The notes under the pieces: model-generated | Database searches by the model: none | What the model was told of the DNA's origin: nothing | What the model saw: the letters and a program-made list of their open reading frames with translations, nothing else | Position numbers and translations under genes: made by a program | In this document: positions 993-26,777 of the stretch, one piece after another | Numbering within the stretch: the first letter of the stretch is position 1 | Layout of the letters: each line of letters begins with the position of its first letter | Origin: Aurantimonas marina | GTDB taxonomy: Bacteria; Pseudomonadota; Alphaproteobacteria; Rhizobiales; Rhizobiaceae | Direction of reading: 5' to 3' | Length of the DNA stretch: 64,000 nucleotides | Assembly (NCBI RefSeq): GCF_017183135.1 | Contig: NZ_JADDXW010000013.1 | Span: 1 to 64,000 of the forward strand

Positions 993-2053
993 TCCGCCGG
1001 ATGGGTCTGCGGGATTGGCTGCGGTCCCTTCGCGGTCCTGGCCTGTTCCTCATCGACCCAGAGACTGTGATGGGCCCGGGCCCAGGCCAGATCGACCTCG
1101 CCGCTGCCCATGGCGTCGTAGGCGCCCTCCATACCGAGGGAGCCGATATAGATATGGGCGATGATAATGGCGATCAGCACCATGCCCACCGTGGCGTGGA
1201 CATACTGCGCAATCTGCATGCCCTCGACGTTCAGCACCGAGAAGGGGAAGAGCATCAGGAGACCACTGATCGACAGGGCGAGGCCGCCTAGCGTGACCGA
1301 CCAGAAGATCATTTTCTGACCGGCGTTGAAGCGATGCGCTGGCGGATGCTTGTCGCCGACGAAGCCACCGAACTCCCGGATCCAGCGAATATCGGTCCGG
1401 CTCGGAAGATTGTCCTTGATCCAGACGAAAATCATCAAGACGAGGCCGACCATGAACGCCCACGAGACGAAATTGTGGACGTACTTGGCCCACTGGCTCC
1501 AAGTCGAAAAGGCTTCCGGACCGATGAGTGGGAACAGCAGACGCTTGCCGAAGACATAGTTGAGGCCCGTGATCGCCAAGAGGATGAACGCGGTGGCGGT
1601 CATCCAGTGGTTCAGCCGCTCAAAGAAGCTGAAACGCAAGAGCTTGCGCTCGACCTCCGGGCTGTCCTCGAGCATGATGCGGCCGCGCGAGAAGTAGAAG
1701 GCGGCGAGGGCGACGATCATGCCGATGATGGCAATGGCGCCGATCCACGGCAGCCAGCCCTCGCGAAAGCTCCGGTAGTCGCGGCCTTCCGGCTGCTCCA
1801 GCACCGCGGCCTTGCTGTCCGGGATGCTGACCCGGCCGTCGATCTGGCCACCCTGCAGCGCGTTCAGGAGCTGTTGCTCGGTCGGCGCCTCGGCGGTGGG
1901 GTTCTGGCCGCTGGGATCCGTCCGCACGCCGTCGGTCGGGGCCACTTCGCTCTGGGGCGCGAGATTGTCGTCGCCTTGCTGGGCGAGGACGGGCGTCGCC
2001 AGCATGGCGAGCGCCAGACCGCCGGCGGCGAGGAAGGTTCGAAGCCTGGTCAT
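989..2053 (-). CDS. fdoI: Formate dehydrogenase gamma subunit, cytochrome b556 type
   Basis: 354 residues. This membrane subunit would carry electrons from the Fe-S subunit to the quinone pool through two b hemes. After a cleavable signal (ending near LATPVLAQ) there is a Gln/Glu/Pro-rich periplasmic stretch, an extra membrane segment (GWLPWIGAIAIIGMIVALAA) and then the usual four-helix cytochrome b domain. Candidate heme ligands are the His residues in RLNHWMTA, KYVHNFVSW, QYVHATVG and IIAHIYIG. The ATG at 2053 was chosen because signal peptide and family length fit; the open frame upstream only shadows fdhB. It follows fdhB by 10 bp. The extra N-terminal helix makes it longer than the E. 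coli FdnI type, but such extended forms are known with FDH3-type enzymes. Confidence 0.92.
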   Translation of the reverse strand: MTRLRTFLAAGGLALAMLATPVLAQQGDDNLAPQSEVAPTDGVRTDPSGQNPTAEAPTEQQLLNALQGGQIDGRVSIPDSKAAVLEQPEGRDYRSFREGWLPWIGAIAIIGMIVALAAFYFSRGRIMLEDSPEVERKLLRFSFFERLNHWMTATAFILLAITGLNYVFGKRLLFPLIGPEAFSTWSQWAKYVHNFVSWAFMVGLVLMIFVWIKDNLPSRTDIRWIREFGGFVGDKHPPAHRFNAGQKMIFWSVTLGGLALSISGLLMLFPFSVLNVEGMQIAQYVHATVGMVLIAIIIAHIYIGSLGMEGAYDAMGSGEVDLAWARAHHSLWVDEEQARTAKGPQPIPQTHPAE

Positions 2054-2063
2054 CCTCGTCACC

Positions 2064-2660
2064 TCAGGCTCCGATCGTTTCGCCATAGGCCGTCTGCCAG
2101 CCCCAGGCGCCGGTACCGTAGCCGCGCTTGGCGACCCGCTCCTTGTAGATCGTCGCGATGATGTCGCCGTCGCCGGCCAGCAGCGACTTGGTCGAGCACA
2201 TCTCGGCGCACATCGGCAGCTTGCCCTCGGCAATGCGGTTCTTGCCGTATTTGGCGTATTCCGCCTCAGAGTTGTCGGCTTCGGGACCGCCGGCGCAATA
2301 GGTGCACTTGTCCATCTTGCCACGCGAGCCGAAATTGCCGACCCGCGGATATTGCGGGGCGCCGAACGGGCAGGCGTAGAAACAGTAGCCGCAGCCGATG
2401 CACAGATCCTTGGAATGCAGCACCACGCCGTCCTCGGTGGTGAAAAAGCAGTCCACCGGGCACACCGCCGCACAGGGGGCGTCGGTGCAGTGCATGCAGG
2501 CCATCGACACGGAGCGCTCGCCCGGCTTGCCGTCGTTCAGCGTCACCACGCGCCGCCGGTTGATGCCCCAAGGCACGTCGTGCTCGTTCTTGCACGCCGT
2601 CACGCAGGCATTGCACTCGATGCAGCGATCGGAGTCGCAGAGAAATTTAAGCCGCGCCAT
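2064..2660 (-). CDS. fdh3B: Formate dehydrogenase beta subunit, four-cluster ferredoxin type (FDH3 beta)
   Basis: 198 residues. It passes electrons from the molybdenum subunit to the cytochrome b subunit. Four Cys-rich groups typical of the HybA/DmsB/FdnH family are visible: CDSDRCIECNACVTAC, CMHCTDAPCAAVCP, CIGCGYCFYACP and CTYC with the later MCAEMC. It lacks the C-terminal membrane helix of E. coli FdnH, so it is the short FDH3 form held by partners. It starts 13 bp after fdhA and ends 10 bp before fdoI. No signal peptide is present; it presumably crosses the membrane with FdhA through Tat. Confidence 0.94.
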   Translation of the reverse strand: MARLKFLCDSDRCIECNACVTACKNEHDVPWGINRRRVVTLNDGKPGERSVSMACMHCTDAPCAAVCPVDCFFTTEDGVVLHSKDLCIGCGYCFYACPFGAPQYPRVGNFGSRGKMDKCTYCAGGPEADNSEAEYAKYGKNRIAEGKLPMCAEMCSTKSLLAGDGDIIATIYKERVAKRGYGTGAWGWQTAYGETIGA

Positions 2661-2673
2661 TATCTCGCTCCCC

Positions 2674-5610: not shown

Positions 5611-5617
5611 CACCGCC

Positions 5618-5842
5618 TCACTTGTCCTGCAGCGTTTCGTAGCCGTTAGTCCGGTAGAACGCCTGCACGTCCGGGCTGTCGGGCTGATATTTAGGCCGCG
5701 TCTCGTCGGTCCCGGGATCGTAGGCCTCGGCCTCATCGACGAAGGCCGGCGCCGTCACGGCTGCGGCCGTCGCGGCGCCGGCCACACCCGTGGCCTTGCG
5801 AAGGAAGGCGCGTCGATTGAGATCAGGCTTGTCTTTGGCCAT
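5618..5842 (-). CDS. Formate dehydrogenase region Tat-signal protein (TIGR02811 type)
   Basis: 74 residues. It consists almost entirely of a twin-arginine signal (NRRAFLRKATG, residues 9-19), an Ala-rich hydrophobic stretch and about 35 polar residues containing FYRTNGYETL. This architecture and position, directly before the catalytic subunit, match the family known as formate dehydrogenase region TAT target. The molecular role of that family is unclear; co-export or stabilisation of the enzyme is usually suspected. The stop lies 7 bp before the fdhA start, so the two are probably translated from one message. Confidence 0.88.
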   Translation of the reverse strand: MAKDKPDLNRRAFLRKATGVAGAATAAAVTAPAFVDEAEAYDPGTDETRPKYQPDSPDVQAFYRTNGYETLQDK

Positions 5843-5896
5843 GGTCGTCTCCCATTTCCGCGCCGGCGCGCGGGCCGCGATCGTCTCTCAGCAGTC

Positions 5897-6541
5897 TCAT
5901 GCGACCAGCGCCTGCGAGTCGGCCTCGATTGTCATGAAGCTGCGGCCGACACGACCGACACACCGATAAAAATCTGCTGATGGGGCCATTTCGAGATCCG
6001 CAAAGAAGCGGTCCATCCATGGCGCCAAATGTCGGGCGAAGAAGTTTCGGGTTGCGCTCTCCGAAGCCGCGAAGCGTCCGCCGATCAGCCCGGCCATGAT
6101 CTCGCAGAGAACCCCGACATGATCCTCGAGTTCGACAAGGTTTTCGGCGCGTTCGATGCCGAGCCGCGCGAGGTCCTGCCGCAGGCGGGCCAGCGGCTTC
6201 TCGCGCAGGAATCCGGTCAGGTAATAGGAGCCGTAGGGCACCAGTTCGCCGCGACCGACGCCGATGAAGAGGTTGAAATACTCGCGCTCCAGACGCGCCG
6301 GATCGGCCCGGCGCGCAGCCTCCGCAAGCGCCGTGTGACTGCGTCCGAGCGGAGTCGAATCGCCGGACAATTCCGCGACCAGCGCTAGCGTCTCGGCCCT
6401 GGGCGCCCGAGCCGTGAGAACGGTCAGCAGGCCGTAATGCTGGACGCGGAATGCATCGACCGGATCGAGCGCCACGCGCGACGGTGCCGAATCCGGCGAG
6501 GCAGCGCCGCTAAGGCTGGATGCGGTAGGCCTTTCGGTCAT
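5897..6541 (-). CDS. TorD/DmsD-family molybdoenzyme chaperone
   Basis: 214 residues, predicted cytoplasmic and all-helical. TorD-type chaperones bind Tat signals of molybdenum enzymes and hold them back until cofactor is inserted. The family signature is seen as EYFNLFIGVGRGELVPYGSY followed by YLTGFLREKPL and an ELEDHVGVL-type helix with E and H. It lies upstream of the Tat protein and fdhA, so FdhA is the likely client. The first 30 residues are Ala/Ser/Pro-rich and unlike the family core; a later start cannot be excluded, but no better ribosome site is seen. Confidence 0.9.
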   Translation of the reverse strand: MTERPTASSLSGAASPDSAPSRVALDPVDAFRVQHYGLLTVLTARAPRAETLALVAELSGDSTPLGRSHTALAEAARRADPARLEREYFNLFIGVGRGELVPYGSYYLTGFLREKPLARLRQDLARLGIERAENLVELEDHVGVLCEIMAGLIGGRFAASESATRNFFARHLAPWMDRFFADLEMAPSADFYRCVGRVGRSFMTIEADSQALVA

Positions 6542-13229: not shown

Positions 13230-13386
13230 TTTTTTTCACCTCCCAATCGTTCGATGCTTTTCGACGCCCGAAGAAGCGTTAACCAAACTCATCCGGGAGC
13301 CAACGTTTCCGCCGGGATTGGGTTGACCGATGGAGGGCATTGACGCCGATTATTTCCTTGGCCGGCTATGTGCAGCCCCCGTCTCT

Positions 13387-13698
13387 TCAGCCGGAACCAC
13401 CGACCTCGCCGATCCAGAGGCCAGCGTCCTCGAGTGTTTCGAAGGGAAGAGGGTGGATCTCGGCGCAAGGTCCGAAGCCGGCCTCGAGGAACCAGCGGGA
13501 CTCCATTGCCCCGTAATGCGCTCCGCAAAGGCGCACCAGCACCGCGAGAAGCATGCCCTTAAAAAAGACCAGGCGACCATCGGCAGCCTCCCGGCCAATT
13601 CCGACCCGCACCGATTGGAAGGTAAGATCCTGCTGCAAGACGAACTCCCATCGCCGATCTTCGATGACACCCAGATACGAGTTGGGAGGAGGTTTCAT
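13387..13698 (-). CDS. Hypothetical small protein
   Basis: 103 residues from the ATG at 13698; the codon before it is a stop, so this is the earliest start. GGAGG occurs but about 20 bp upstream, farther than usual. The sequence has a globular look (WEFVLQQDLTFQSVRVGIG, then LVFFKGMLLAVLVRLCGAHY) but no recognised domain. It begins 32 bp after the end of the broken Crp/Fnr gene on the same strand. Competing frames overlap this stretch, so confidence is low. Confidence 0.38.
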   Translation of the reverse strand: MKPPPNSYLGVIEDRRWEFVLQQDLTFQSVRVGIGREAADGRLVFFKGMLLAVLVRLCGAHYGAMESRWFLEAGFGPCAEIHPLPFETLEDAGLWIGEVGGSG

Positions 13699-13730
13699 TC
13701 AACAAGATTGTGTGAATCCTCCGGTTGCCT

Positions 13731-14459
13731 CTAGCGCCGATAGGCCGGATCGAACTCTGCCCTCGCGCACAGCCTTGCCCAGTCGTGAACGGTGAGGATC
13801 CTTTGCTGAAAGCTGATGATGCCCGCTACTCGCAAATCCTGGAGCACCCGGTTGACATGCACGACCGTGAGGCCGGCAACATCGGCGATGTTTTCCTGTG
13901 TCAGCGGCAAAACCCGCGAGCTGGCATCGGCCACAACGGTTGAGCGGGTCGGCAGAAACATTTCTCAGAGAAAATGTGCGATGCGCTGATGGGCGGGCCG
14001 GCGACCGAGATTGACGATCCATTCTCGGGAAATGGCTTCCCCAGCTTGAGAGACCCACCAGAGAGCCCGGCCGATATCGGGGTGAGCCGCGATGGCGTCT
14101 ATGACGGTCTGGCGCTTCGCAACCGCGATCTCGCAGTCCATGGCGGCCTCGATGTCGTAATCGAGCTGAGGAAAAAAGATGGATGACAGATCGCAGATGT
14201 CGCCAGGCATCACGATGCTGAGGATCTGGCGCTGGCCGCTCGGCACGGTCTTGTAGCCGAATGCCATGCCTTCGACCATAGTGGTAATGAGCGAAGTCGG
14301 GTCGCCCTCCCGCGGGATGGCTCCATGCCGGTGCACCTCGATGACAGATGCGAAGGCTTCTCGAAGCGCCCGTTCGCTCGCCTGTGTAAGCGGCCCCGCC
14401 TGCTGGAGCGTCCTGAGGAAAGCATCTATCATAAATCTGGCTTGTCGCTTGGCCGGCAT
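13731..14459 (-). pseudogene. Crp/Fnr-family regulator interrupted by an in-frame TGA
   Basis: From 14459 the frame encodes an N-terminal cyclic-nucleotide-binding-like domain (FGYKTVPSGQRQILSIVMPG, DICDLSSIFFP) and the dimer helix up to RRPAHQRIAHFL. A TGA at 13967-13965 then stops it. The same frame resumes EMFLPTRSTVV and gives a full helix-turn-helix domain (LTQENIADVAGLTVVHVNRV, LQDLRVAGII) to 13731. Relatives usually read H-L-(L/F)-C-E at this point, so TGC or TGT to TGA is the simplest explanation. Unless the stop is read through, the N-terminal fragment lacks DNA binding. An ATG at 13961 could restart the C-terminal domain alone. Confidence 0.85.
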
Positions 14460-14583: not shown

Positions 14584-15342
14584 GTGAGCGCAGACGCTTC
14601 CGCCCCAGATTTGGTGGCGGCGATGTCGGACGTTCCTTTTTCCAACCCGCGAAATCGGTTGCTTCGTCAGTTGCATCCTGATGATCTGGCAGCGATCACG
14701 GCTCTGCTTGAGCCGATCGAGCTGGGACGCGGAGATGTCTTGATCCAGCCCAACGAGCGCATCGAGGCGATCGTTTTTCCGGAATCCGGCATCGTTTCGA
14801 TCGTGGCGTCGACGGAAGACCATCGTCGCGTGGAAATCGGAATTATCGGGCGCGAGGGGATGACCGATGGATCCATTCTCATCGGGGTCGACAGAGTCCC
14901 GCATGAGGTTTTCGTCCAGGTCGCGGGCAGCGGCATGCGGATCGATGCCGCAGCTCTGCTGGCGCTGGTCGCGGCCCGCCCCGCCATACGGGTGCAGCTA
15001 TTGCCCTGGTTGCATATTCTAACTGTTCAGGCCGCCCAGACGGCCTTGTCGAACGCCGGCTATGACATCGAGGCGCGCCTCGCCCGCTGGCTGCTGATGT
15101 GCCAGGATCGCGTCGATAGCAACGAAATACCGCTGACCCATGAGTTCCTCGGCGTCATGCTGGCGGTGCGGCGGTCGAGCGTGACACTTGCCACGCACAT
15201 GCTGGAAGGCGCGAAGATCATCAAGGCGGAACGGGGCCGGATCACGATTCTGGATCGTGAGGCTCTCAAGGGCCTCGCCGGCAATTCCTACGGAACCAGT
15301 GAGGCCGAGTATGAGCGGCTCCTCGGCCCATTCCGCGGATAA
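14584..15342 (+). CDS. Crp/Fnr-family transcriptional regulator
   Basis: 252 residues from a GTG, or 239 from the ATG at 14623 (MSDVPFSNPRNRLLRQL), which matches related proteins better. A cupin-like effector domain (LEPIELGRGDVLIQPNERIE, VFPESGIVSIV) occupies residues about 25-150. A helix-turn-helix region follows at 190-235 (LTHEFLGVMLAVRRSSVTLA). No cluster-binding N-terminal Cys group like that of Fnr is visible, so redox sensing by Fe-S is unlikely. It is divergent from the broken Crp/Fnr gene. Targets cannot be assigned, although several TTG-N8-CAA boxes occur in the window. Confidence 0.9.
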   Translation: MSADASAPDLVAAMSDVPFSNPRNRLLRQLHPDDLAAITALLEPIELGRGDVLIQPNERIEAIVFPESGIVSIVASTEDHRRVEIGIIGREGMTDGSILIGVDRVPHEVFVQVAGSGMRIDAAALLALVAARPAIRVQLLPWLHILTVQAAQTALSNAGYDIEARLARWLLMCQDRVDSNEIPLTHEFLGVMLAVRRSSVTLATHMLEGAKIIKAERGRITILDREALKGLAGNSYGTSEAEYERLLGPFRG

Positions 15343-15808: not shown

Positions 15809-17935
15809 ATGACTTCTTGGGCACGATTTGACCCATTGCGACGCCGGGACCTCATGGTGAAGATGGAAGCGGGGATTTGCCGGGTTCGCAAGGCGCGCCC
15901 GCAGATCCTGTTGGCCATGCTGATGGCCGTTCACGGACAGGGAGCAGTCGCGCAGGAAAAGGGAGACAATCTGCAGACGCTGAGCCAGGATCCGGCGCAA
16001 TGGGTGATGCCCGCCAAGAACTATGCGAGCACCCGCTACAGCGAACTTGACCAGATTGATACGGAGAATGTCGATCAGTTGCAATTGGCCTGGTCGTTTT
16101 CCAACGGCGTCAATCGAGGGCAGGAATCGATCCCGCTGGTTGTCGACGGCACCCTTTATATCGTTGGCCCGTTTCCCAACAACCTCTTTGCCCTAGACGC
16201 GACCACCGGCGATCTCAAATGGACCTATTCGCCGCCAACGCAGAAGGCGGCTCAAGGGGTAGCTTGCTGCGACGTCGTCAATCGCGGCGCAGCCTACAGC
16301 AACGGACGGATTTTCTATAACACGTTGGACAACAACACGGTAGCGGTCGATGCCAAGACCGGCAAGGAAGTATGGCACAGGAAGCTCGGGGAGATCAATC
16401 AGGGCCAGACGATGACGATGGCCCCCCTGGTCGTGAAGGGGAAGGTTCTCGTCGGCAATAGTGGCGGCGAGATGGGCGTTCGCGGGTGGCTGACGGCGCT
16501 CGACGAGAACACCGGCGAAATAATTTGGCGCGCCTACCACACCGGCTCCGACGCGGACGTTCTGATTGGCGACGATTTTCAGGCGCCGTACGACTGGATG
16601 AGAGGAAAAGATCTCGGCATCAAGACCTGGCCTGCCGATCGCTGGCGCATCGGCGGCGGTACGGCGTGGGGCTGGATTTCCTACGATCCGGAGCTCGACC
16701 TGATTTTCTACGGAACCGGCAATCCCGGCCCATGGAACTCCAATCAGCGTGAGGGAGACAATCTCTGGACGACGACGATCTTCGCACGCGATCCGGATAC
16801 CGGCATGGCGAAATGGGCCTATCAGACCTCACCGCACGATCTGTGGGACCACGATGGCGTCAACGAAATCCTGCTGCTCGACCTGGAGATTGACGGCAAA
16901 CCTCGTAAGGTGGCGCTACGACCGGGCCGAACCGGTTACATGTACCTTCTCGACCGGACCAACGGGAAGCTGATCTCGGCCGAGCCGTTCGACACGGTGA
17001 CGGCCTACAAGGGCGTCGACCTTGCTACCGGCCGGATCATTCCGAACGAGGAAAAAAAGCCATCGGTCGGTCGGCTGGTGCAGGACGTCTGCCCGGCGCC
17101 GCCGGGAGCCAAAGATTGGCAGCCGACCGCCTGGTCGCCGCGGACGCAGTTGCTCTACGTTCCGCACCAGCATCTTTGCGCGAACCTGAAAATGTCCGAG
17201 GTCGGCTATATCGCTGGCACGCCGTATCTCGGCGCTACTGCGGACATGTATGCCGGGCCAGGGGACGGATACAGGGGCGAGTTCATGGCCTGGGATCCTG
17301 TCAAGCAGAAGAAGGTGTGGGCGATCCAGGAAAAGTTTCCCGTGTGGTCCGGCACTACAGTCACGGCCGGTGATATCGCGTTCTACGGCACGATGGATCG
17401 CTGGTTTAAGGCCGTGAACGCCAAGACCGGCGAAGTGCTGTGGAAGTTCCGCGCTCCTTCGGGCTTCATCGGTCAGCCCTCTACATACCAGGGGTCGGAT
17501 GGACGGCAATACGTCGCGATCCTATCCGGCGTCGGCGGCTGGGCCGGTGCGCTCGCGGTGGCGGAGATCGATCCGCGGGTACGCAACGGGGCACTGGGCT
17601 TTGTGGGAGCGACCCAGGATCTACCAGCTTACACGACCGGCGGCAGCACGCTCTTGGTGTTCGCGCTGCCGGAGCAACCGGGTGCGGCGGCCGGGCGGAA
17701 GTCCGGCGGCGCCGATCCAGCCGCGAAAGCAGCCGAATCGGCACCTGGTTCCGAAACCAAGGAAGCCAGCGGTGCGTCGCCGAACGCGTCACCTGACAAG
17801 TCGGACGACACCGACACCGGATTGGCGGAGGCGGTCAGCGGCCCGGCGTCTGCCGATGCACCACCAAGCGTCGCACCGCGCAGCGAGAACCCCAAGGGTC
17901 CCGTAGGGGAGGAATTCAATGCGCCCGCGGACTAG
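15809..17935 (+). CDS. xoxF: Lanthanide-type PQQ-dependent methanol/alcohol dehydrogenase (XoxF)
   Basis: 708 residues. A periplasmic eight-bladed propeller quinoprotein that oxidises methanol (to formaldehyde or formate) and reduces a cytochrome c. The signal peptide ends near GQGAVAQE (about residue 50). Hallmarks: vicinal disulfide C153-C154, metal ligands E221 (GGEMG) and N305 (TGNPG), catalytic D347 and the extra D349 in WDHDG. That extra Asp distinguishes lanthanide XoxF from calcium MxaF, which has Ala there. Trp-docking repeats such as DAKTGKEVW recur. After the usual end (VFALPEQ, about residue 635) there is an unusual tail of about 70 residues rich in Ala, Ser, Pro and Asp. It overlaps xoxJ by 17 bp. 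The first 30 residues are long for a signal, so an internal start (15854) is possible. Confidence 0.94.
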   Translation: MTSWARFDPLRRRDLMVKMEAGICRVRKARPQILLAMLMAVHGQGAVAQEKGDNLQTLSQDPAQWVMPAKNYASTRYSELDQIDTENVDQLQLAWSFSNGVNRGQESIPLVVDGTLYIVGPFPNNLFALDATTGDLKWTYSPPTQKAAQGVACCDVVNRGAAYSNGRIFYNTLDNNTVAVDAKTGKEVWHRKLGEINQGQTMTMAPLVVKGKVLVGNSGGEMGVRGWLTALDENTGEIIWRAYHTGSDADVLIGDDFQAPYDWMRGKDLGIKTWPADRWRIGGGTAWGWISYDPELDLIFYGTGNPGPWNSNQREGDNLWTTTIFARDPDTGMAKWAYQTSPHDLWDHDGVNEILLLDLEIDGKPRKVALRPGRTGYMYLLDRTNGKLISAEPFDTVTAYKGVDLATGRIIPNEEKKPSVGRLVQDVCPAPPGAKDWQPTAWSPRTQLLYVPHQHLCANLKMSEVGYIAGTPYLGATADMYAGPGDGYRGEFMAWDPVKQKKVWAIQEKFPVWSGTTVTAGDIAFYGTMDRWFKAVNAKTGEVLWKFRAPSGFIGQPSTYQGSDGRQYVAILSGVGGWAGALAVAEIDPRVRNGALGFVGATQDLPAYTTGGSTLLVFALPEQPGAAAGRKSGGADPAAKAAESAPGSETKEASGASPNASPDKSDDTDTGLAEAVSGPASADAPPSVAPRSENPKGPVGEEFNAPAD

Positions 17936-18743
17936 CTTGCGCGATATCGTCTGCTGCCTCACGGCCTTCGCCGCAGTTGTTGCGCCAGCTTTTGCGCAGT
18001 CGCCGGCGGAGGAGGGGAGTGGAACATTGCGTGTCTGTGCCGACCCTAACAATCTTCCTTTTTCCGATCGCAACGGCAAGGGATTCGAGAACAAACTGGC
18101 CGAGCTGGTCGCCGACGATATCGGCATGGCCGTTTCTTATAAGTGGTGGGCGCAGCGGCGTGGGTTCATCCGCAATACGTTGAAGGCCGGAACGTGCGAC
18201 GTCATTATGGGGGTGCCGGCGCTCGACATGATCGGCCTCACCCGCAGCTACTACAGCTCCACCTATGTGCTCGTTAGCCGCGTCGACAAGGGATACGAAT
18301 TCAGCTCGCTACAGGCGCCGGAATTACGCGACCTGAAGATCGGGGTGCACTTGATTGGAGACGATGGCGCGAACACCCCGGCGGTGCAGGTCCTCGGCGA
18401 TCTGGGTATCGTCGAGAATGTCGTCGGCTACCCGATCTATGGCGACTACCGCGAGGATTCGCCGCCCCTGCGCGTCTTGAAGGACGTCGTAGATGGGAAG
18501 ATCGACATGGCCATCGTCTGGGGGCCACTGGCTGGATATTTCGCGAAGACGACTGCCGCGCCACTGAAGGTCACTCCGATCACCGGAGCCGAGGCATTTC
18601 TGCCTTTCGTCTTTCAGTTCTCGATCGCCATGGGTGTCCGCAAGGACGATCAAGCTTTGCAAAGCAAATTGAACGAGGTGATCTCACGAAAACGCCCCGA
18701 AATCGAAGCGATTCTCGATGAATATGGTGTGCCCCGGCTATGA
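17919..18743 (+). CDS. xoxJ: Quinoprotein-associated periplasmic binding protein XoxJ
   Basis: 274 residues with a signal peptide (LTAFAAVVAPAFAQS). The fold is that of a family 3 solute-binding protein: RVCADPNNLPFSDRNGKGFE near the N-terminus, then GTCDVIMGVPALDMIGLTRS. XoxJ/MxaJ proteins are thought to bind and activate the dehydrogenase rather than feed a transporter, and no permease gene is nearby, which fits. It starts inside the end of xoxF and its TGA overlaps the ATG of xoxG (ATGA). Confidence 0.92.
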   Translation: MRPRTSLRDIVCCLTAFAAVVAPAFAQSPAEEGSGTLRVCADPNNLPFSDRNGKGFENKLAELVADDIGMAVSYKWWAQRRGFIRNTLKAGTCDVIMGVPALDMIGLTRSYYSSTYVLVSRVDKGYEFSSLQAPELRDLKIGVHLIGDDGANTPAVQVLGDLGIVENVVGYPIYGDYREDSPPLRVLKDVVDGKIDMAIVWGPLAGYFAKTTAAPLKVTPITGAEAFLPFVFQFSIAMGVRKDDQALQSKLNEVISRKRPEIEAILDEYGVPRL

Positions 18744-19474
18744 CAAGCAACAGGCCATCATGTCCCCATGGGAGTGGAACGGAGGCTGGGATGGAGACCC
18801 AAAAGACGGGAAAGTGGACCGCGTGTCCCGCTGGCAAGACTTTCGCCGGGGTTGCGCTGGCAATCTTGGCCGGCCTCGATAGCGGTCATGCGCAGGAAAA
18901 AGCGGAACTTCCATCCCTCGAGCAGGATCTGGGCCGGTTTGGAGGGAGCGGCGAAATCGCGCGGGTCCCGGTGACGAAGCTGTTCCCCGGCGACGTAGCG
19001 GCGGGGCCCGACAATGTCAGCCCCGTCGAAAACGATCCCGCCGCCGTTGAAAGGGGAATGCTCTACTTCAACCAGTTTAATTGCGTCGGGTGCCACGCAG
19101 CCAACGGAGCGGGAGGGATGGGTCCGTCGTTGAGCAATGCGTCCTTCACTTACGGAGACAAACCGGAACAGATCTTCCTGACCATTCTACAGGGTCGCCC
19201 GAATGGCATGCCGACGTTCGGTGGCATGCTTCCAGATGAGGTTATCTGGGATCTGGTCGCCTACATCGGACAGATCAGCAAAGAGCCGTCCGGGGAATGG
19301 GGCAAGACCACCTCGGTCGACGGCTTCAAAATCGAACAGGTTCCGGCGGAATACCTGTCGACGAGCGACCCTTGGGAATACAAGACACCCTTCAGCTACG
19401 GTCAGAAGCCCTATGAGAAGACCAAGGGTGCGCCTTCGCTGGAGTCGCCGGCCGCCGGGGCGCCACCGAAATGA
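18740..19474 (+). CDS. xoxG: Cytochrome c XoxG, electron acceptor of XoxF
   Basis: 244 residues from the ATG at 18740 that overlaps the xoxJ stop; an ATG at 18791 would shorten the N-terminus to a more typical signal peptide (ALAILAGLDSGHAQE). One heme c site is seen, CVGCH, with MGPSLSN after it and a likely Met ligand in NGMPTFGGMLPDEVIWDLVA. The C-terminal 60 residues contain a DPWEYKTPFSYGQKPYE stretch. It would shuttle electrons from XoxF to the oxidase encoded next. Its TGA overlaps the coxB start. Confidence 0.92.
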   Translation: MTSNRPSCPHGSGTEAGMETQKTGKWTACPAGKTFAGVALAILAGLDSGHAQEKAELPSLEQDLGRFGGSGEIARVPVTKLFPGDVAAGPDNVSPVENDPAAVERGMLYFNQFNCVGCHAANGAGGMGPSLSNASFTYGDKPEQIFLTILQGRPNGMPTFGGMLPDEVIWDLVAYIGQISKEPSGEWGKTTSVDGFKIEQVPAEYLSTSDPWEYKTPFSYGQKPYEKTKGAPSLESPAAGAPPK

Positions 19475-20526
19475 TGGGCGGCGGCGAAAGGGTGAGGTGG
19501 CGCGGCGCGTTCCTGGCGGCGGGAGTGGGCGTCCTGGGGGGGACGGCGGGCGCCGCAGCGCAGACGCCCATGTCTTACCTTCGTTCGTTCGGGCCGAAGG
19601 GGGAGGTCACCGTCACGCTGATGTGGGGGCTGCTCGCCCTATCCATTGGCGTCGTGGTCATCATCAGCATCCTCGTCCTGTTCGGAGCGCTTCGGCGACG
19701 AAGCTTTCCTGCCTTTCGCCCAGGCGAGGTTCTTCCGGTCACGCGATCGCCGGGTGGACTGGGATGGATCTATTTCGGAATCGCTCTTACCACCACGATC
19801 CTCATCGGCCTGACGGTATGGACTGTGGCGGTGATGGCGGCGATCGAGGAGCCTGCCGAGGAGCCCCGCTTCACGATTGAAATCACCGGGCAGCAATGGT
19901 GGTGGGAGGCACGCTATCTGGACAGGGAGAATCCCTTCCGCGAATTCGAGACCGCCAATGAGTTGCATATCCCCGTCGGCGAGCCGGTACGCATAAAGCT
20001 CCGAACCAAAGACGTGATCCACTCATTCTGGGTCCCCGCGCTCGGCGGCAAGACGGATCTCATCCCCGGTCAGGTCAACACGACATGGCTCCAGGCCGAC
20101 CATGCAGGCGTTTACCGCGGCCAGTGCGGGGAATATTGCGGGGCCCAGCACGCGAAGATGGCGTTGAAGGTCTTCGCCGACGAGCCGTCGCAGTTCGCGG
20201 CGTGGTGGAACGGGCAATTAAAGCCGGCAGAAACCCCGCCCGAGGGACAGACGGTGGTACGATCCGGTGCGGAGCGGTTCCGATTGCGTTGCGGCGCCTG
20301 TCACGCAGTTCGGGGCACTCTGGCAGGCGGCGACCTTGGGCCGGACCTGACGCATCTGATGAGCCGGACCTCGATCGCGGCGGTCACGCTGCCGAACACG
20401 GTGGGCGACCTCTCTGGCTGGATCGCCGACCCGCAACACATCAAGCCGAAAAGCAAAATGCCCAAACTGGAACTTTCGGGGCCCGAGCTTGCAGCCATTC
20501 GAAGCTATCTGCTGACCCTCGAATGA
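19471..20526 (+). CDS. coxB: Heme-copper oxidase subunit II with fused cytochrome c domain
   Basis: 351 residues. Signal peptide, two membrane helices, a cupredoxin domain and a C-terminal cytochrome c domain, the caa3-type layout. The aromatic patch is ITGQQWWWEARY. The CuA ligands are H (DVIHSFWVPAL) and CGEYCGAQHAKM. The heme c site is CGACHAVRG (about residues 270-278), with a candidate Met in KSKMPKLELSG. It accepts electrons from cytochrome c on the periplasmic side. The ATG at 19471 overlaps the xoxG stop, and its TGA overlaps the coxA ATG, showing a single coupled unit. Confidence 0.94.
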   Translation: MMGGGERVRWRGAFLAAGVGVLGGTAGAAAQTPMSYLRSFGPKGEVTVTLMWGLLALSIGVVVIISILVLFGALRRRSFPAFRPGEVLPVTRSPGGLGWIYFGIALTTTILIGLTVWTVAVMAAIEEPAEEPRFTIEITGQQWWWEARYLDRENPFREFETANELHIPVGEPVRIKLRTKDVIHSFWVPALGGKTDLIPGQVNTTWLQADHAGVYRGQCGEYCGAQHAKMALKVFADEPSQFAAWWNGQLKPAETPPEGQTVVRSGAERFRLRCGACHAVRGTLAGGDLGPDLTHLMSRTSIAAVTLPNTVGDLSGWIADPQHIKPKSKMPKLELSGPELAAIRSYLLTLE

Positions 20527-22484
20527 AGGAACCCGCCGTGACCGTTGCACCCTACGTGAAGGCGCCGAGGACAGAGACCGTCAACCCCGCACTGGAGCGC
20601 AAGCTGCAGGCGCTCTGGGAAACCAAGCCGGGCCTCTTGGGCTGGATTTCGACCGTCGATCACAAGGAAATAGGCATTCGCTACATCGTGACGGCCTTCG
20701 CCTTTCTGGTGACGGGGGGCATCGAGGCCTTGATCATGCGGGTTCAGCTGGCGCAGCCCGAACAGCGGTGGTTGGGCCCCGAAGCGTATAACCAGCTGTT
20801 TTCGATGCACGGTATCACGATGATCTTCCTCTACGCGTTGCCGGTGCTGTCCGGCTTCAGCAACTATCTCTTTCCGCTGCTGCTCGGCAGTCGCGACATG
20901 GCGTTCCCCCGACTCAACGCGTTTTCGTACTGGATCTATCTCGCCTCGGGCCTTTTCCTTTACGCGAGCTTTCTCGTCGGGGCGGCGCCGAACGACGGCT
21001 GGTTCAACTATGCCCCCTATTCGCTTCGGCCGTACAATCCTGGGCTGAACATGGATTTCTACGCCCTCGGGATGATTTTCCTCGGGATTTCGACGACAGT
21101 GGGAGCGGCGAACTTCATCGTTACCGTCATGCGCACTCGTGCTCCCGGCATGGCGATCCACCGGCTACCCGTGATGATCTGGGGAACCACAACCATCTCG
21201 GTCGGCATCCTCTTGGCAACGCCGGCGGTCAGCCTGGCCTTCTTCCTGCTTTGGATGGATCGCCAGTTCGGCACCCATTTTTACGACCTCGCTGGTGGCG
21301 GCAAGCCATTGCTCTGGCAGCACCTCTTCTGGCTGTTCGCGCATCCCTGGGTCTACATCATCGTGCTCCCGGCGATGGGCATGGTGTCGGAGGGGCTGCC
21401 GGTGTTCTGCCGGCGGACCCTCGTCGCCTATCCGCTGGTAATCCTCGCCACCATCACCACAATGGCGCTGGGCTTCGGGGTTTGGGCACACCACATGTTC
21501 GCGACTGGAATTCCGTTCCTGGCCAGCAGCTATTTCAGCGGCGCGTCGTTCATTATTACCATCCCCAGCGCGGTGGCCGTGTTCGCCTGGATTGCGACGA
21601 TCTGGAGCGGACGCGTCGTGGTTGGGAGCGCGTTCCTCTACTTCGCCGGGTTCATCTCGATGTTCGTCATCGGCGGCGTCTCGGGCGTCATGACGGCGTC
21701 GGTTCCCGCCGACCTCCAACTCACCGATACCTATTTCGTGGTGGCGCATATCCATTACGTACTGATTGGCATCAACCTATTCGGAGTTCTCGGCGGGCTG
21801 CACTACTGGTTCCCGAAGATGACCGGTCGCCTGCTGGACGAGCGGCTGGGCCGCTGGACATTCTGGACGATCTTTTTCGGCTTCAATCTGGCCTTCCTCC
21901 CGATGCACTGGACCGGCCTCCTCGGCATGCCCCGGCGCGTCTACACCTATCCCGCCGACGTCGGCTGGACCACAGTCAACATGATATCCACGGCCGGGGC
22001 GTTTATCCTCGCGCTCGGTATACTTCTGCTACTGATTAATGTGGCCGTCAGCCGGCGCCGCGGCGCTGTCGCAGGACCTAATCCCTGGGATGCACCGTCG
22101 CTCGAGTGGGCGACATCCTCGCCACCGCCCCCCTACAACTTTGCGGTCATCCCGTCGGTTAAGAGCCGTCATCCGCTGTGGGAGGAGGGTCTCGGCGAAG
22201 GTAGCGGCCGCTCCTCCATACAGCGGGGGCTGGCCCTCAACGACGGCAAGGAAACCATCGGAACCACGGTGATCGATGCGCGACCCGATGTCGTCCTCAA
22301 GATGCCCGAGGACGATCCTTGGCCATTTCTGGTGACCATCGCTCTGACGGTTGGATTCACCGCCCTGCTTCTGCACTGGTGGTGGGTCGGGGTGGCCGCC
22401 GGTGTCGCCGTCATCGGCTGTACGGTCAGCTGGCTATGGCCGCGGGCGGATCTTGGACAGACATCAGGAGCGACCTATGAATGA
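20523..22484 (+). CDS. coxA: Heme-copper oxidase subunit I, variant lacking usual channel Glu and Lys
   Basis: 653 residues; twelve core helices plus two more near the C-terminus (about 595-640). Catalytic residues are present: H96 (SMHG), H274 and Y278 (FAHPWVY), H323-H324 (WAHHMF) and H409/H411 (VVAHIHYV). The D-channel entrance Asp is kept (D125, GSRDMAFPR). In the motif usually read GHPEVY the Glu is W276, and in PTGIKxFSW the Lys is A352 (PSAVAVFAW). This is therefore a non-canonical oxidase that should reduce oxygen but may pump protons differently. A long frame opening at 20085 is only overlap with coxB; the ATG at 20523 overlaps its stop. Confidence 0.93.
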   Translation: MKEPAVTVAPYVKAPRTETVNPALERKLQALWETKPGLLGWISTVDHKEIGIRYIVTAFAFLVTGGIEALIMRVQLAQPEQRWLGPEAYNQLFSMHGITMIFLYALPVLSGFSNYLFPLLLGSRDMAFPRLNAFSYWIYLASGLFLYASFLVGAAPNDGWFNYAPYSLRPYNPGLNMDFYALGMIFLGISTTVGAANFIVTVMRTRAPGMAIHRLPVMIWGTTTISVGILLATPAVSLAFFLLWMDRQFGTHFYDLAGGGKPLLWQHLFWLFAHPWVYIIVLPAMGMVSEGLPVFCRRTLVAYPLVILATITTMALGFGVWAHHMFATGIPFLASSYFSGASFIITIPSAVAVFAWIATIWSGRVVVGSAFLYFAGFISMFVIGGVSGVMTASVPADLQLTDTYFVVAHIHYVLIGINLFGVLGGLHYWFPKMTGRLLDERLGRWTFWTIFFGFNLAFLPMHWTGLLGMPRRVYTYPADVGWTTVNMISTAGAFILALGILLLLINVAVSRRRGAVAGPNPWDAPSLEWATSSPPPPYNFAVIPSVKSRHPLWEEGLGEGSGRSSIQRGLALNDGKETIGTTVIDARPDVVLKMPEDDPWPFLVTIALTVGFTALLLHWWWVGVAAGVAVIGCTVSWLWPRADLGQTSGATYE

Positions 22485-23094
22485 GATCGTTCTTGACCCG
22501 GGCGGCACAGCGGACACAAAGCCCCTGCCGGTCGGCAGCGTGGGGCATCGCGCGTCTGGATGGTGGGGCATGATGACCTTGATTCTCACCGAAGGGCTCC
22601 TGTTCGCCTATCTTTTGTTCACCTACTTCTATCTTGCCGCCAACTCCGACGGAAACTGGTTGCCGGACGAGTTGCCCTCTTTCAAGCTGTCTGGCCCGAA
22701 TACGTTGATCCTGATCGCCAGCAGTGTGGCGGTCTGGTTTGGTGAGCGAGGTGCCAAAAGGGGTTCGCGAGCCCAACTTGTCATTGGGTTGGCCGTAGGC
22801 TTTTCCTTGGGCACTGTGTTTACGGGGATTCAGATCAAGGAGTGGATCGACAAGCCGTTTTCCCTCGCCGCTCATTCCTATGGGTCGACTTATTTTACGA
22901 TAACCGGTTTCCACATGGCCCATGTCGCGGCGGGGTTGTTGATGCTCGGTGTTCTGACGCTGTGGTCGGTGATGGGTTATTTCGACCGTCGACGCCTAGC
23001 GCCGGTCTCGATCGGAGCGGTCTACTGGCATTTTGTCGACGTAGTCTGGCTGGCGGTGTTCTTCACCTTCTATGTCACGCCATATCTGAGGTGA
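22477..23094 (+). CDS. coxC: Heme-copper oxidase subunit III
   Basis: 205 residues with five predicted membrane helices, the short form of subunit III that lacks the first two helices of the mitochondrial type. The helix TEGLLFAYLLFTYFYL, the block GSTYFTITGFHMAHVAAGLL and the C-terminal YWHFVDVVWLAVFFTFYVTP are diagnostic. The ATG at 22477 lies inside the end of coxA (8-bp overlap). It probably stabilises subunit I and lines the oxygen or proton route. Confidence 0.93.
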   Translation: MNEIVLDPGGTADTKPLPVGSVGHRASGWWGMMTLILTEGLLFAYLLFTYFYLAANSDGNWLPDELPSFKLSGPNTLILIASSVAVWFGERGAKRGSRAQLVIGLAVGFSLGTVFTGIQIKEWIDKPFSLAAHSYGSTYFTITGFHMAHVAAGLLMLGVLTLWSVMGYFDRRRLAPVSIGAVYWHFVDVVWLAVFFTFYVTPYLR

Positions 23095-23097
23095 CCT

Positions 23098-23538
23098 ATG
23101 ACTGACCGGCAATTGGAAGCTATCGGCCAGGAGGATACCGCACGGCGACATCCCGGCGGCGGTGGGCCAGCGGTCATGCTTGCCGCCGCTCCGGGTCTAT
23201 GGATACTGCAATTGCTCGCGGGCTCGGCGATCGCGAGCTCCGCGTGCGGCGCGGGGGACGGCCCCCCGCTTGCTGCTTCGGGTAACGGCTGGGCGTATCC
23301 TGCGCTTGTCGGAATTAATCTCGGCGCGCTGCTGCTCGCCTTGCTGGCACTGTCACTGTCCCAGGTCCGCCTGCGCCGGACTGAAAGAGCGCCGAGCCCA
23401 GGCGATGACGAAATGGGGACAAACGGGCCAACGCGCTTTCTTTTGGGATGGGCGCTTGGGACGAGTGTCCTGTTCGCGGTGGCGATCGGTGTCAACACGA
23501 TCGGAATATTCTGGGTGGGCCTATGCGGCGCAAACTGA
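23098..23538 (+). CDS. Small membrane protein of the xox-cox unit
   Basis: 146 residues with three predicted membrane segments (about 27-48, 65-88 and 112-138). It starts 3 bp after coxC and overlaps the next gene by 16 bp, so it is part of the same message. I do not recognise the family. Position after subunit III suggests a subunit IV-like or assembly role, but the sequence shows no clear similarity to known subunit IV forms. Confidence 0.7.
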   Translation: MTDRQLEAIGQEDTARRHPGGGGPAVMLAAAPGLWILQLLAGSAIASSACGAGDGPPLAASGNGWAYPALVGINLGALLLALLALSLSQVRLRRTERAPSPGDDEMGTNGPTRFLLGWALGTSVLFAVAIGVNTIGIFWVGLCGAN

Positions 23539-23909
23539 CGAGATCGGTTCGGTTGGCGGTGAGCGTGGGCGTCGTTGTCACGCTCGCCGCATGCCAGGAC
23601 TCCGGCGCTAAGAATCGTGCGGCCGCAATCGGTGACGCTGACGTTGGCGCCACTTTGATCGGGCGGTATGGCTGCGGCAGCTGTCATGAAATCCCCGGAA
23701 TCGAGAATGCCCGCGGTCTGGTGGGGCCGCCGCTGGACCATATGGGGCGGCGAATTTATCTAGCTGGAATGCTGCCCAACACGCCCGCTAATATGGTGCA
23801 ATGGCTCCGTGACCCCCAGGCCATCGTTCCCGGCAACGCTATGCCCGATATGGGATTGAGCCGACGGGAGGCCGCGGACATCGCTGCTTATCTGTTCAAG
23901 CTCGATTAA
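23523..23909 (+). CDS. Cytochrome c, lipoprotein type
   Basis: 128 residues. The signal ends in a lipobox (TLAAC), so the protein is probably lipid-anchored at the outer face of the inner membrane. One heme c site is present, CGSCHEIPG, with the Met ligand likely in NAMPDMGLSRREAADIAAYL. It may carry electrons between XoxG and the cytochrome domain of CoxB, or act as an additional subunit (inference from position). The ATG at 23523 lies within the end of the preceding gene. Confidence 0.88.
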   Translation: MRRKLTRSVRLAVSVGVVVTLAACQDSGAKNRAAAIGDADVGATLIGRYGCGSCHEIPGIENARGLVGPPLDHMGRRIYLAGMLPNTPANMVQWLRDPQAIVPGNAMPDMGLSRREAADIAAYLFKLD

Positions 23910-24210
23910 CCAGGGCTCCGCCAATCGGAATCCAGCGGTGCTTCCGCAACTCCATGAGCGAGGTCCCCATGGATGGTCTCGTCCAGTCGGGTAAGCGCAG
24001 ATTGGCGCGGATGTCGGCCGGCGGCGAAGCCCGACTCTCGCTCAGAGCATGGTTTTGGGTCTGCTGAAATTATGGTGTCAAGGCGTTTTTGCGTGTTCAC
24101 GAAACTTTGGAACGCCCGCGCCAGGCGAGTCCTTCCGGGCGGGGGTGGATCCGAGAATCGCGGCGGGCCAACCGCCCTCTTTCAGGTTTTAGCGATGGTG
24201 AAGATGAGGG
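23910..24210. other. Intergenic region before ctaG
   Basis: 301 bp without a convincing gene, RNA or terminator. Short frames on both strands lack ribosome sites and protein-like composition. It may hold a promoter for ctaG. Confidence 0.4.
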
Positions 24211-24879
24211 ATGCAGATCCTGTCTACCTTTGTGAGAAATGACGGTTGGAGCAGATGCTTCCGTGCATGGCCGCTGATATTTGGCGTAATGCTCTTGTGC
24301 GGGCTCTGGCTGGGTCCACTCACCGAACTTAGCGGCCGCGTCTTCTCGCTCCATATGATTCTGCATTTGGCGACGGTCTCTATCGCCGCGCCGCTCATCG
24401 CGATTGGATTATCTCGGATCGGTTTGGGGCTACAGACGGTCCGGCCGGGAATCAAACCCGCGATCGCCGCCTCAGCCTTCGACATGTTCATGATTTCGGT
24501 CTGGCATGCCCCTGCGCTACATGAGGCCGCGGCGCGTCACACAGGGGTCTTCGTATTCCAACAAGTGAGCTTTCTGACGGGGGCTCTCTTGGTCTGGGCG
24601 ATCAGCTTCGCAGGCCGGGCCAGGGGTAATGCCGCGATTGGGGCCTTCGCACTCCTGGCCACCTTCATGCACATGACGATGCTGGGTGTGCTGATCGCCC
24701 TTGCGCCCGACCTAATTTATGCCCCAGATGTATGCATCGGCGCCTTCGGTCTCGATCCATTGCGGGACCAGAAGTTGGGTGGGGTATTGATGGCCGTCTT
24801 CGGCGGATTTTCATATCTCGTTGGGGGTCTGGTGCTGATGCGGAGACTCATCGGCGACCGGGAAACAGCGTCGACCTAA
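24211..24879 (+). CDS. ctaG: Cytochrome c oxidase assembly protein, caa3-type CtaG family
   Basis: 222 residues with about six membrane helices. The segment FSLHMILHLATVSIAAPLIA and the pair VWHAPALHEAA and TFMHMTMLGVLIALAP are typical of the caa3_CtaG family, which helps assemble CuB in heme-copper oxidases. The N-terminus is shorter than usual and GAGGG-like bases lie too close to the ATG, so the exact start is uncertain. It lies 301 bp after the cytochrome gene and serves the oxidase encoded just upstream by inference. Confidence 0.85.
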   Translation: MQILSTFVRNDGWSRCFRAWPLIFGVMLLCGLWLGPLTELSGRVFSLHMILHLATVSIAAPLIAIGLSRIGLGLQTVRPGIKPAIAASAFDMFMISVWHAPALHEAAARHTGVFVFQQVSFLTGALLVWAISFAGRARGNAAIGAFALLATFMHMTMLGVLIALAPDLIYAPDVCIGAFGLDPLRDQKLGGVLMAVFGGFSYLVGGLVLMRRLIGDRETAST

Positions 24880-25050: not shown

Positions 25051-25170
25051 GTGAACCGCCCCGGCTTTCCCGGAGACTGTTTGGTTTGAATCCTACGCGG
25101 CGATCGGCAGAGCCTTGCAGATCGGCTCGACCCCATAGACATCACGATGATCGTCGATGAACGCCGTCAT
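25051..25170 (-). mobile_element. IS3-family end with orfB start fragment
   Basis: The plus strand begins TGAACCGCCCCGG at 25052 followed by CTTTCCCGGAGACTG, resembling terminal inverted repeats of IS3-group elements. On the minus strand 25170-25093 encodes MTAFIDDHRDVYGVEPICKA before a stop, the opening of an IS3 orfB. The rest of the element is missing and the fragment abuts IS481-like sequence. Confidence 0.7.
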
Positions 25171-25544
25171 CGTCGGAATGGGCGGTCGAGCTCCGCCTTC
25201 GGCAGGCGGGAGATGCCATGACGTTGCAGGCAGCGATGCAGCGACGAGCGCGTCAGATGCGGGATGGCGTCCTTCAAAGCGACGTAGACGTCGTCCAGCG
25301 GCAGGCGGGCCTGGGCGCGCAGCGCCACGATCGCGGCCTCCTCAATCACTGAAAGGACGGAGCTACGTCGCTCCTTCGGGCCCGTCGGCTCGTCCTCGAC
25401 TCTCGCGCGCGATCGCCATTTCCTCACGGTCTTCTCGTTGATCCCGAAGCGCCTCGCGAGCTCCGCGGACGAAGCTTGCGATCGCTGTAGCTCCGCTCGC
25501 ACCGAGTGCGTGGTCTTGACGCTCCCGTGAAGAACCTGGCCCAT
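25167..25544 (-). pseudogene. IS481-family transposase, N-terminal fragment
   Basis: 125 residues. A helix-turn-helix head (SSAELARRFGINEKTVRKWR) followed by GPKERRSSVLSVIEEAAIVA and the block LTRSSLHRCLQRHGISRLP are typical of IS481 transposases. Relatives continue for about 200 residues into the DDE catalytic core, which is absent here. The sequence breaks at the join with the IS3 fragment. It is inactive. Confidence 0.85.
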
Positions 25545-25601
25545 AGTGCGTCCCTCTCAGACGGCGACAACGATACGCCATCACACCGCGGGACAAAACA
25601 A

Positions 25602-26777
25602 CTAGCTGGTCAGCAACCTCACCGCGTCGCGGGCAATGACGATTTCCTCGTCGGTGCGGATCAGCAGGATCTCGACGCGACTGTCCGGCGCATCGATCCG
25701 CTCCACCGCGGCCGAATTGCGGTCCGGATCGACCGCAAGTCCGAGCCAGGCGAGGTGCCGGCACACGGCGTCGCGAATGCCGGGCTGGTTCTCGCCGATC
25801 CCGCCGGTGAAGACTAGGCGGTCGAGGCCGCCGAGGCTCGTCGCCATCACGGCGACCTCTCGCGCGACACTGCGGACGAAAAGCGCCACCGCCTCGCGGG
25901 CTTGCGGCGTGTCGGCTTTGAAAAGCTCGCGGATATCCCCGGACAGTTCCGAGACGCCGAACAGCCCCGATCTGTAATAGAGCAGATGTTCGATGGCCTC
26001 GGGCGTAAAGCCCTTGGCCTTGAGCAGATAGAGGATGACGCCCGGATCGAGCGAGCCGCACCGGGTCGCCATGACGGCGCCATCGAGGACCGAGAATCCC
26101 ATGGTGGTGTCGACGCTCTGGCCCTTCTCCAGGGCGCACAAGCTGACGCCGGCCCCCAGATGCGCGACGACCGTCTTCGTCGCGGCGGTGCCAGGCCAGC
26201 GTTCCTCCAGCCGATGGGCGATGTAATCGTAGGACAGGCCGTGAAAGCCGTATTTGCGGATGCCCTCCGTTTCAAGCCGGCGGGGCAGCGCGTAGCGGGC
26301 GGCTTCCGGCAGGATGGTGCTGTGAAACGCGGTGTCGAAGGACGCGGTCTGGCGAAGATGCGGCCGAAGACCTGCGATCGCGCGTACCGGCCTCAGCCCC
26401 AGTGGCTGGTGCAGCGGAGCAAGCGGCATGAATTCCTCGATCGCGGTGATCGCCTCGGTGGTGAGCCGTTCCGGGCCGGTAAAAGCAGTGCCGCCATGAA
26501 CGATGCGATGGCCCACGGCGGCGAGAGGGTCCGGCTGCGCCAAATTCTCCGCCCAGGCGAGAAGGCGTTCGTAGGCGGCGTCCGGATCCGCTCCGGCAAC
26601 GGTCTCGTCCAACGCCGTGCCGCCATCGGCATCGCGGGCCACGAGCCGGATGCCATCCTCGGAGCTTTTGATCTGCCCACTTGCCATCATTGACGGCCAA
26701 CCGGTCCGTCCCGCGTGATGCAGTCCGAATTTCACGCTCGACGAGCCTGCGTTAATGCTCAAGATCACGTCGGCCAT
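25602..26777 (-). CDS. ackA: Acetate kinase
   Basis: 391 residues. It converts acetyl phosphate and ADP to acetate and ATP. The N-terminal phosphate motif ILSINAGSSSVKFGL, the signature RIVHGG, and the ATP-binding GAGVSLCALEKG and FTGGIGENQPGIR blocks are present. The ATG at 26777 has GGAGGGGGAG just upstream. It begins 36 bp after the phosphoketolase gene, its natural partner since that enzyme makes acetyl phosphate. The pair forms a short ATP-yielding branch, probably used when oxygen is low. Confidence 0.95.
   Translation of the reverse strand: MADVILSINAGSSSVKFGLHHAGRTGWPSMMASGQIKSSEDGIRLVARDADGGTALDETVAGADPDAAYERLLAWAENLAQPDPLAAVGHRIVHGGTAFTGPERLTTEAITAIEEFMPLAPLHQPLGLRPVRAIAGLRPHLRQTASFDTAFHSTILPEAARYALPRRLETEGIRKYGFHGLSYDYIAHRLEERWPGTAATKTVVAHLGAGVSLCALEKGQSVDTTMGFSVLDGAVMATRCGSLDPGVILYLLKAKGFTPEAIEHLLYYRSGLFGVSELSGDIRELFKADTPQAREAVALFVRSVAREVAVMATSLGGLDRLVFTGGIGENQPGIRDAVCRHLAWLGLAVDPDRNSAAVERIDAPDSRVEILLIRTDEEIVIARDAVRLLTS

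Follow-up and report, generated by a model that had tools for sequence, protein, structure and literature searches.

Does a methanol dehydrogenase whose gene runs directly into those of a terminal oxidase have its own route to oxygen, and what kind of oxidase stands at the end of it? The question is raised by a 64,000-nucleotide stretch of the alphaproteobacterium Aurantimonas marina (contig NZ_JADDXW010000013.1, positions 1 to 64,000; hereafter the window), in which six genes, xoxF, xoxJ, xoxG, coxB, coxA and coxC, recognized from the list of open reading frames and from family searches, overlap one after the other across positions 15809-23094. The overlaps are 17 bp at xoxF/xoxJ, 4 bp at each of xoxJ/xoxG, xoxG/coxB and coxB/coxA, and 8 bp at coxA/coxC, in agreement with the gene list and the overlaps of 4-17 bp given in an initial annotation made from the sequence alone. 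The linkage of xoxF3 to cox genes is itself already known; the oxidase is the part worth following, and the proton-pathway residues missing from its subunit I, CoxA, are the most unusual feature of the locus.

Most CoxA proteins encoded beside xoxF3 belong to one of two groups, one comprising relatives 61-80% identical to the window CoxA (the window lineage) and the other relatives that are 46-50% identical (the second lineage). With residue roles assigned by alignment to the Mycobacterium smegmatis oxidase, the window CoxA carries Trp276 where the D-pathway Glu would be (FAHPWVY, that is, HPWVY and not HPEVY) and Ala352 at the position of the K-pathway Lys (IPSAVAVFAW). The Trp occurs in all 27 distinct members of the window lineage, the window's own included (the duplicates L068/L081 and L022/L126 being counted once), and the K-pathway position is occupied by Ala in 17, Ser in seven, and Gln, Gly and Thr in one each. 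Six further members from named plasmids likewise combine Trp and Ala, bringing the totals to 33/33 for the Trp and 33/33 for the absence of the Lys. The entry Asp is retained in all 26 readable members, and the His ligands of heme and CuB, the active-site Tyr and the Arg pair in every readable one. A DNA pattern search for FW..(A/G)HPWVY picked out six of 398 Pseudomonadota genomes, exactly those that the protein search had found; where there were matches, the reversed control gave 0. Viral contigs gave no match.

By fold and metal ligands CoxA is an A-family heme-copper oxidase: it scores above the cut-off of TIGR02891, preserves the ligands, and finds A-family fold matches. Within that family, A1 oxidases are defined by the motif XGHPEVY and A2 oxidases by YSHPXVY (PMC8361435). 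The window sequence lacks the Glu of the former, and the YS pair of the latter occurs in 0 of the 33 motifs; the lineage therefore belongs to neither A1 nor A2. In the enzymes studied, proton uptake is blocked once the D-pathway Asp or Glu gives way to a nonprotonatable residue (PMC8361435), and an HPWVY oxidase would therefore have to use a different path or couple less. Four residues, Thr222, Thr224, Thr391 and Asn418, are fixed in 17/17 sequences of the window lineage but seldom or never occur in 22 sequences of the second, and one guess is that they might contribute to such a path. A predicted structure of CoxA was rejected as a guide to the proton path, its confidence being low at residues 273-276 and 322-362 and poor around the active site, and it served only to confirm the A-family fold. 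That the K-pathway varies, and can be lost, within the A family is already documented; such loss would have happened seven times independently under one published scenario, which its authors reject (PMC8239418). No paper on the Trp variant was found in a small number of searches aimed at it, with most subscription papers outside their coverage, and broader searches on heme-copper channels and COX operons returned general papers only.

How, then, does this oxidase relate to systems already described? Operons that join xoxF3 to cox and ctaG have been published, mainly from Acidobacteria, and the accessible text of that report makes no mention of proton-pathway residues in them (PMC10875860). The closest operon class is COX type a-II, in which COX1 is fused with COX4 to give 630-670 residues, COX3 is short, and pyrroloquinoline quinone (PQQ) dehydrogenases such as methanol dehydrogenase are often present (PMC4013037); its enzymes have been termed A1 oxidases, subtype a (PMC6431628). 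The window, with a 653-residue CoxA carrying an extra C-terminal part, a 205-residue CoxC and a PQQ dehydrogenase nearby, conforms to this class as judged by the length of CoxA and its two extra helices, and not by a score for likeness to COX4. It differs in that HPWVY replaces the A1 motif, a variation that goes unmentioned for a-II in the accessible parts of these articles.

Among structures, the nearest is the caa3 oxidase of Thermus (2yev), which we take to be of the A2 type. It is the top fold match of the window CoxA (37% identical in the fold alignment), and its subunit II (2yev_B) is the best PDB match of CoxB; as in 2yev, the CuA subunit bears a fused cytochrome c domain, the arrangement that marks an oxidase as caa3. 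The CuA and heme c motifs of CoxB are invariant across 15 aligned sequences. The Thermus enzyme differs in having no adjoining methanol dehydrogenase. The second CoxA lineage, mostly from Bradyrhizobium, resembles the window's in lying near xoxFJG and in lacking the K-pathway Lys, which is replaced by Gln, whereas it keeps the Glu, mostly has Asn for the entry Asp, and is usually encoded upstream of xoxF, as in most Bradyrhizobium. One of its members, L133, departs from this pattern at the entry Asp and could not be read at the Lys position.

At the other end of the gene run, the window XoxF conforms to the PQQ methanol/ethanol dehydrogenases with an additional lanthanide-site Asp: it scores above the TIGR03075 cut-off, and its WDHDG aligns with the WDYDG of 4mae. 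The other two residues of that site, a Glu and an Asn, are also retained, and lanthanide use is predicted for the window enzyme. Its bit scores are 633 against 4mae, a XoxF2 structure, 550-555 against XoxF5 structures and 536 against 7o6z, a XoxF1 structure; it is nearer by score to XoxF2 than to XoxF1. In trees of 55 and 61 rows it falls in a well-supported, mostly proteobacterial clade apart from XoxF2, XoxF5 and MxaF. That this clade is XoxF3 is suggested by tree position and elimination, the trees containing no labelled XoxF3 or XoxF4 reference. The assignment can be set beside Methylocella tundrae T4, for which a single XoxF3 in a xoxFGJ cluster has been reported (PMC11102522): a T4 plasmid locus (L156) encodes a member of our clade with adjoining xoxJ and xoxG, and its PQQ dehydrogenase is likely the reported XoxF3. 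The A. marina genome encodes a second XoxF, of the XoxF5 type (988 bits against 6oc5). The C-terminal tail of the window XoxF (17674-17932), low in complexity and about 87 residues long, is not conserved in relatives; the idea that it has a meaning was set aside, as 12 other motif-readable rows of the 55 carry 0-75 residues of unlike sequence there. In one record titled as a Klebsiella pneumoniae metagenome-assembled genome (L075), xoxF and xoxJ are close to sequence from a Myxococcota metagenome-assembled genome, and the bin is probably mislabelled.

The initial annotation considered a private oxidase unusual for XoxF, and for this clade it is not. From 71 related loci in named genome records, we set aside eight outside the clade and 20 with short flanks, leaving 43 clade loci with at least 7 kb on both sides; coxA lies within reach in 38 of them. 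Bradyrhizobium accounts for 27 of the 43, and coxA is present in 12 of the remaining 16, as well as in nine of the 20 short-flank loci left out of the count. It is absent from L036, L039, L040, L077 and L080, the last a fragment scored as negative; L045 was scored as positive despite a curtailed coxA. In this last locus, from Rhodoblastus acidophilus MO, the coxA match (13335-14300) covers only the first 160 residues, after which unrelated sequence follows, indicating a gene cut short. The contrast drawn by the annotation with ordinary methanol dehydrogenases does hold: coxA was found within about 9 kb in 0 of 37 XoxF5-like or MxaF-like control loci from the order and family of A. marina (MxaF identity being checked for L105 and L120), with a weak COX3-like match in one, L093. 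Counting state changes along the XoxF tree gave 11 changes among three states and was dropped as not decisive.

The pairing looks looser from the side of the oxidase. CoxA was searched in overlapping draws of 385, 397, 398 and 60 genomes, with matches listed at E values of 1e-185 or better in two draws and 1e-200 or better in the other two, and with at most three candidates per genome scored in three of the four. Among the matches listed, 15 genomes besides that of A. marina encode an oxidase of the window lineage, and xox genes adjoin it in 11, in head-to-tail, reversed, divergent and convergent orders. In one of these (G650) the oxidase contig holds only xoxJ and xoxG, and xoxF sits at the end of a different contig; in a second (G403) only part of xoxF is present, where its contig ends. 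A strict claim that the window oxidase occurs only with XoxF3 held in the first six genomes, failed in four of the next nine, and was rejected. For the second lineage, a xoxF match lies within about 9 kb in eight of 17 loci, one of them (L142) only 43% identical. Bradyrhizobium STM 3843 combines a XoxF of the Bradyrhizobium kind with a window-type oxidase downstream and, beginning another 9.4 kb along, an oxidase of the second type. As two oxidase lineages accompany the XoxF clade, and both do so in STM 3843, the pairing must have arisen or been exchanged more than once. L126 and L127 share a single contig, on which the two lineages have their starts 9.4 kb from each other, as though one were taking the place of the other.

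Plasmids extend this picture. Six of 19 plasmid records with 60-80% identity to CoxA were examined, and in three (Methylocystis iwaonis, Methylocella tundrae and Mesorhizobium INR15) a PQQ dehydrogenase of the clade adjoins the oxidase. In two (Paraburkholderia D15 and Caballeronia SBC2) its neighbours are a GMC oxidoreductase, identified through Pfam for D15 only, and a gluconate 2-dehydrogenase subunit 3; the sixth (Paraburkholderia PGU19) has neither kind of dehydrogenase there, and the M. tundrae locus has both. The order in D15 and SBC2 (L157 and L160), with the oxidase following the GMC oxidoreductase, suggests a sugar-oxidizing counterpart of the XoxF unit.

We consider it probable that the window encodes a compact periplasmic chain from XoxF3 through XoxG to a caa3-like A-family oxidase with altered, possibly weaker, proton pumping. 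XoxF3 would oxidize methanol or another small alcohol in the periplasm and pass its electrons to XoxG; the cytochrome c domain of CoxB would relay them to CuA, and CoxA would reduce oxygen at its heme-copper site, the bc1 complex being bypassed. In this oxidase protons would probably take a different route, and the number pumped per electron may fall below one. Transfer from XoxF through XoxG to CoxB among the window's own partners is a prediction, as is the altered pumping. The strong rise of XoxF3 with cerium in Methylosinus trichosporium OB3b (log2 7.66; PMC12482762) speaks for such a chain, as a result that concerns XoxF3 itself and not its oxidase neighbours.

Several observations weigh against it. 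Expression of xoxF3 is low and without lanthanide regulation in Methylocella silvestris (PMC9291206), and in M. tundrae T4 it is higher on N2O without oxygen (PMC11102522). The clade loci L036, L039, L040 and L077 are XoxF3 clusters that dispense with cox, and a further one, L082, comes from A. marina's own family. Conversely, the window-type oxidase has no adjoining xox genes in four of the 15 genomes: in two from the window's own genus (G1154 and G1156) the sole XoxF is a XoxF5-like one encoded elsewhere, with 49% identity to that of the window, one (G1089) has no XoxF match, and one (G1091) has a 39% match. These four genomes, the GMC pairing in two of the three Burkholderiaceae plasmids examined, and the plasmid location of some window-type oxidases would also be expected if the oxidase took electrons from reduced periplasmic cytochrome c in general, as a sink next to which xox genes have come to lie through joint travel or regulation, without dedicated pairing. 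We regard this as unlikely, given the gene overlaps in the window, the persistence of the xox link through several gene orders in 11 of the 15 genomes, and the link of the second oxidase lineage, too, to xoxF in eight of 17 loci. Far less probable still is an oxidase that no longer reduces oxygen and serves as an assembly partner or uses another acceptor. The loss of two residues important for proton delivery would suit it, as would the induction of xoxF3 without oxygen in T4, a result that concerns xoxF3 and not its cox genes. However, decay would not leave a lineage conserved across alpha- and betaproteobacteria, and wherever a member could be read it has preserved the active-site Tyr and the ligands of heme and CuB.

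The dedicated route from XoxF to oxygen proposed in the initial annotation thus stands as the best reading of this locus, and not as an absolute link, given the clusters and genomes in which either half occurs alone. The most economical reading is of a portable caa3-like sink that serves periplasmic dehydrogenases via a small cytochrome c, without bc1, and that here has a XoxF-XoxJ-XoxG front end. More tentatively, and with clearly less confidence than in the chain itself, we suggest that the HPWVY oxidases may be a separate A-family subtype, neither A1 nor A2, that reduces oxygen despite lacking the Glu and the Lys regarded as essential for proton delivery, and that they may act as weakly or differently coupled sinks for interchangeable dehydrogenases of the periplasm: XoxF3 in most of the members covered here, and GMC oxidoreductases in some Burkholderiaceae.

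Beyond the six overlapping genes (Table 1), the downstream genes named in the initial annotation are confirmed, with one qualification. A 3 bp gap separates coxC from the small membrane protein gene, which the cytochrome c lipoprotein gene overlaps by 16 bp; ctaG follows only after 301 bp and for that reason is the least certain member of the unit. In Jiella and Aurantimonas, ctaG lies upstream of xoxF on the opposite strand. The order xoxFJG-coxBAC itself is kept in Jiella, Aurantimonas, Fulvimarina and others, and is therefore not due to chance. The small membrane protein matched no family in scans of domain and family libraries, and has counterparts at eight other distinct loci (L010, L026, L042, L052, L068/L081, L074 and L149-L151 being those listed). 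For XoxG, none of the specific families scored exceeded its cut-off; its heme-binding CxxCH is invariant in 14 aligned sequences.

Table 1. Features of the xox-cox locus of Aurantimonas marina, in window coordinates
Feature	Position	Strand	Basis
CRP/FNR-type regulator, upstream of xoxF	14584..15342	+	Pfam HTH_Crp_2 and cNMP_binding
xoxF, PQQ methanol dehydrogenase	15809..17935	+	TIGR03075, 656 bits (cut-off 480); PDB matches; trees
xoxJ, periplasmic binding-protein-like partner	17919..18743	+	TIGR03871, 300 bits (cut-off 212)
xoxG, class I cytochrome c with CVGCH	18740..19474	+	Pfam Cytochrome_CBB3 and Cytochrom_C
coxB, subunit II, CuA domain and C-terminal cytochrome c domain	19471..20526	+	TIGR02866, above cut-off
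coxA, subunit I, 653 residues, two extra C-terminal helices	20523..22484	+	TIGR02891, 685 bits (cut-off 671); alignments; model
FWLFAHPWVY codons, signature of the window CoxA lineage	21327..21356	+	Pattern search
coxC, short subunit III, 205 residues	22477..23094	+	Pfam COX3; start codon and length
Small membrane protein, 146 residues, three hydrophobic segments	23098..23538	+	Hydropathy
Cytochrome c lipoprotein	23523..23909	+	Pfam Cytochrom_C; lipobox LAAC identified by eye
ctaG, copper/oxidase assembly factor	24211..24879	+	Pfam Caa3_CtaG

The tight spacing of the xox-cox genes suggests that they are co-transcribed. A consensus scan of the locus found no promoter-like sites, which is weak evidence. 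Terminator-like sites numbered 12, where 8.1 were expected; all five of those on the plus strand fall within reading frames and none between genes, which is likewise weak evidence. The CRP/FNR-type protein is a candidate regulator of the unit, and a counterpart 54% identical to it lies upstream of xoxF in L082. Just past ctaG (25167-26139), minus-strand frames resemble a transposase by eye. The formate dehydrogenase that the initial annotation assigned to the product of the pathway is real, and lies outside the xox-cox unit, about 9 kb away on the minus strand (989-6541); its gamma subunit scores above the family cut-off and its alpha subunit below, and a TorD-like chaperone accompanies the two.

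The A. marina genome has seven COX1-family matches: the window CoxA and six others, which include a canonical aa3 subunit I as well as subunits of cbb3 type. This excludes the possibility, raised with the initial annotation, that these cox genes are its only oxidase, and makes the window oxidase an extra one. Another COX1 of this genome, on contig C23 (5961-7919 of L153), lies in an open frame of 867 residues and retains the Glu, with Gln for the K-pathway Lys.

XoxF3 systems have been described as experimentally unstudied (PMC10875860), and a self-contained XoxF3-XoxG-caa3 unit lends itself to transfer and testing in one piece. Its HPWVY oxidase amounts to a natural experiment on proton pumping: a conserved lineage, its metal sites intact, does without residues whose replacement stops proton uptake in the enzymes studied. 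Should this oxidase pump, an alternative to the accepted proton paths is needed; should it not, the energy yield from methanol would be lower, which could explain why an extra oxidase is maintained beside the others of the genome.

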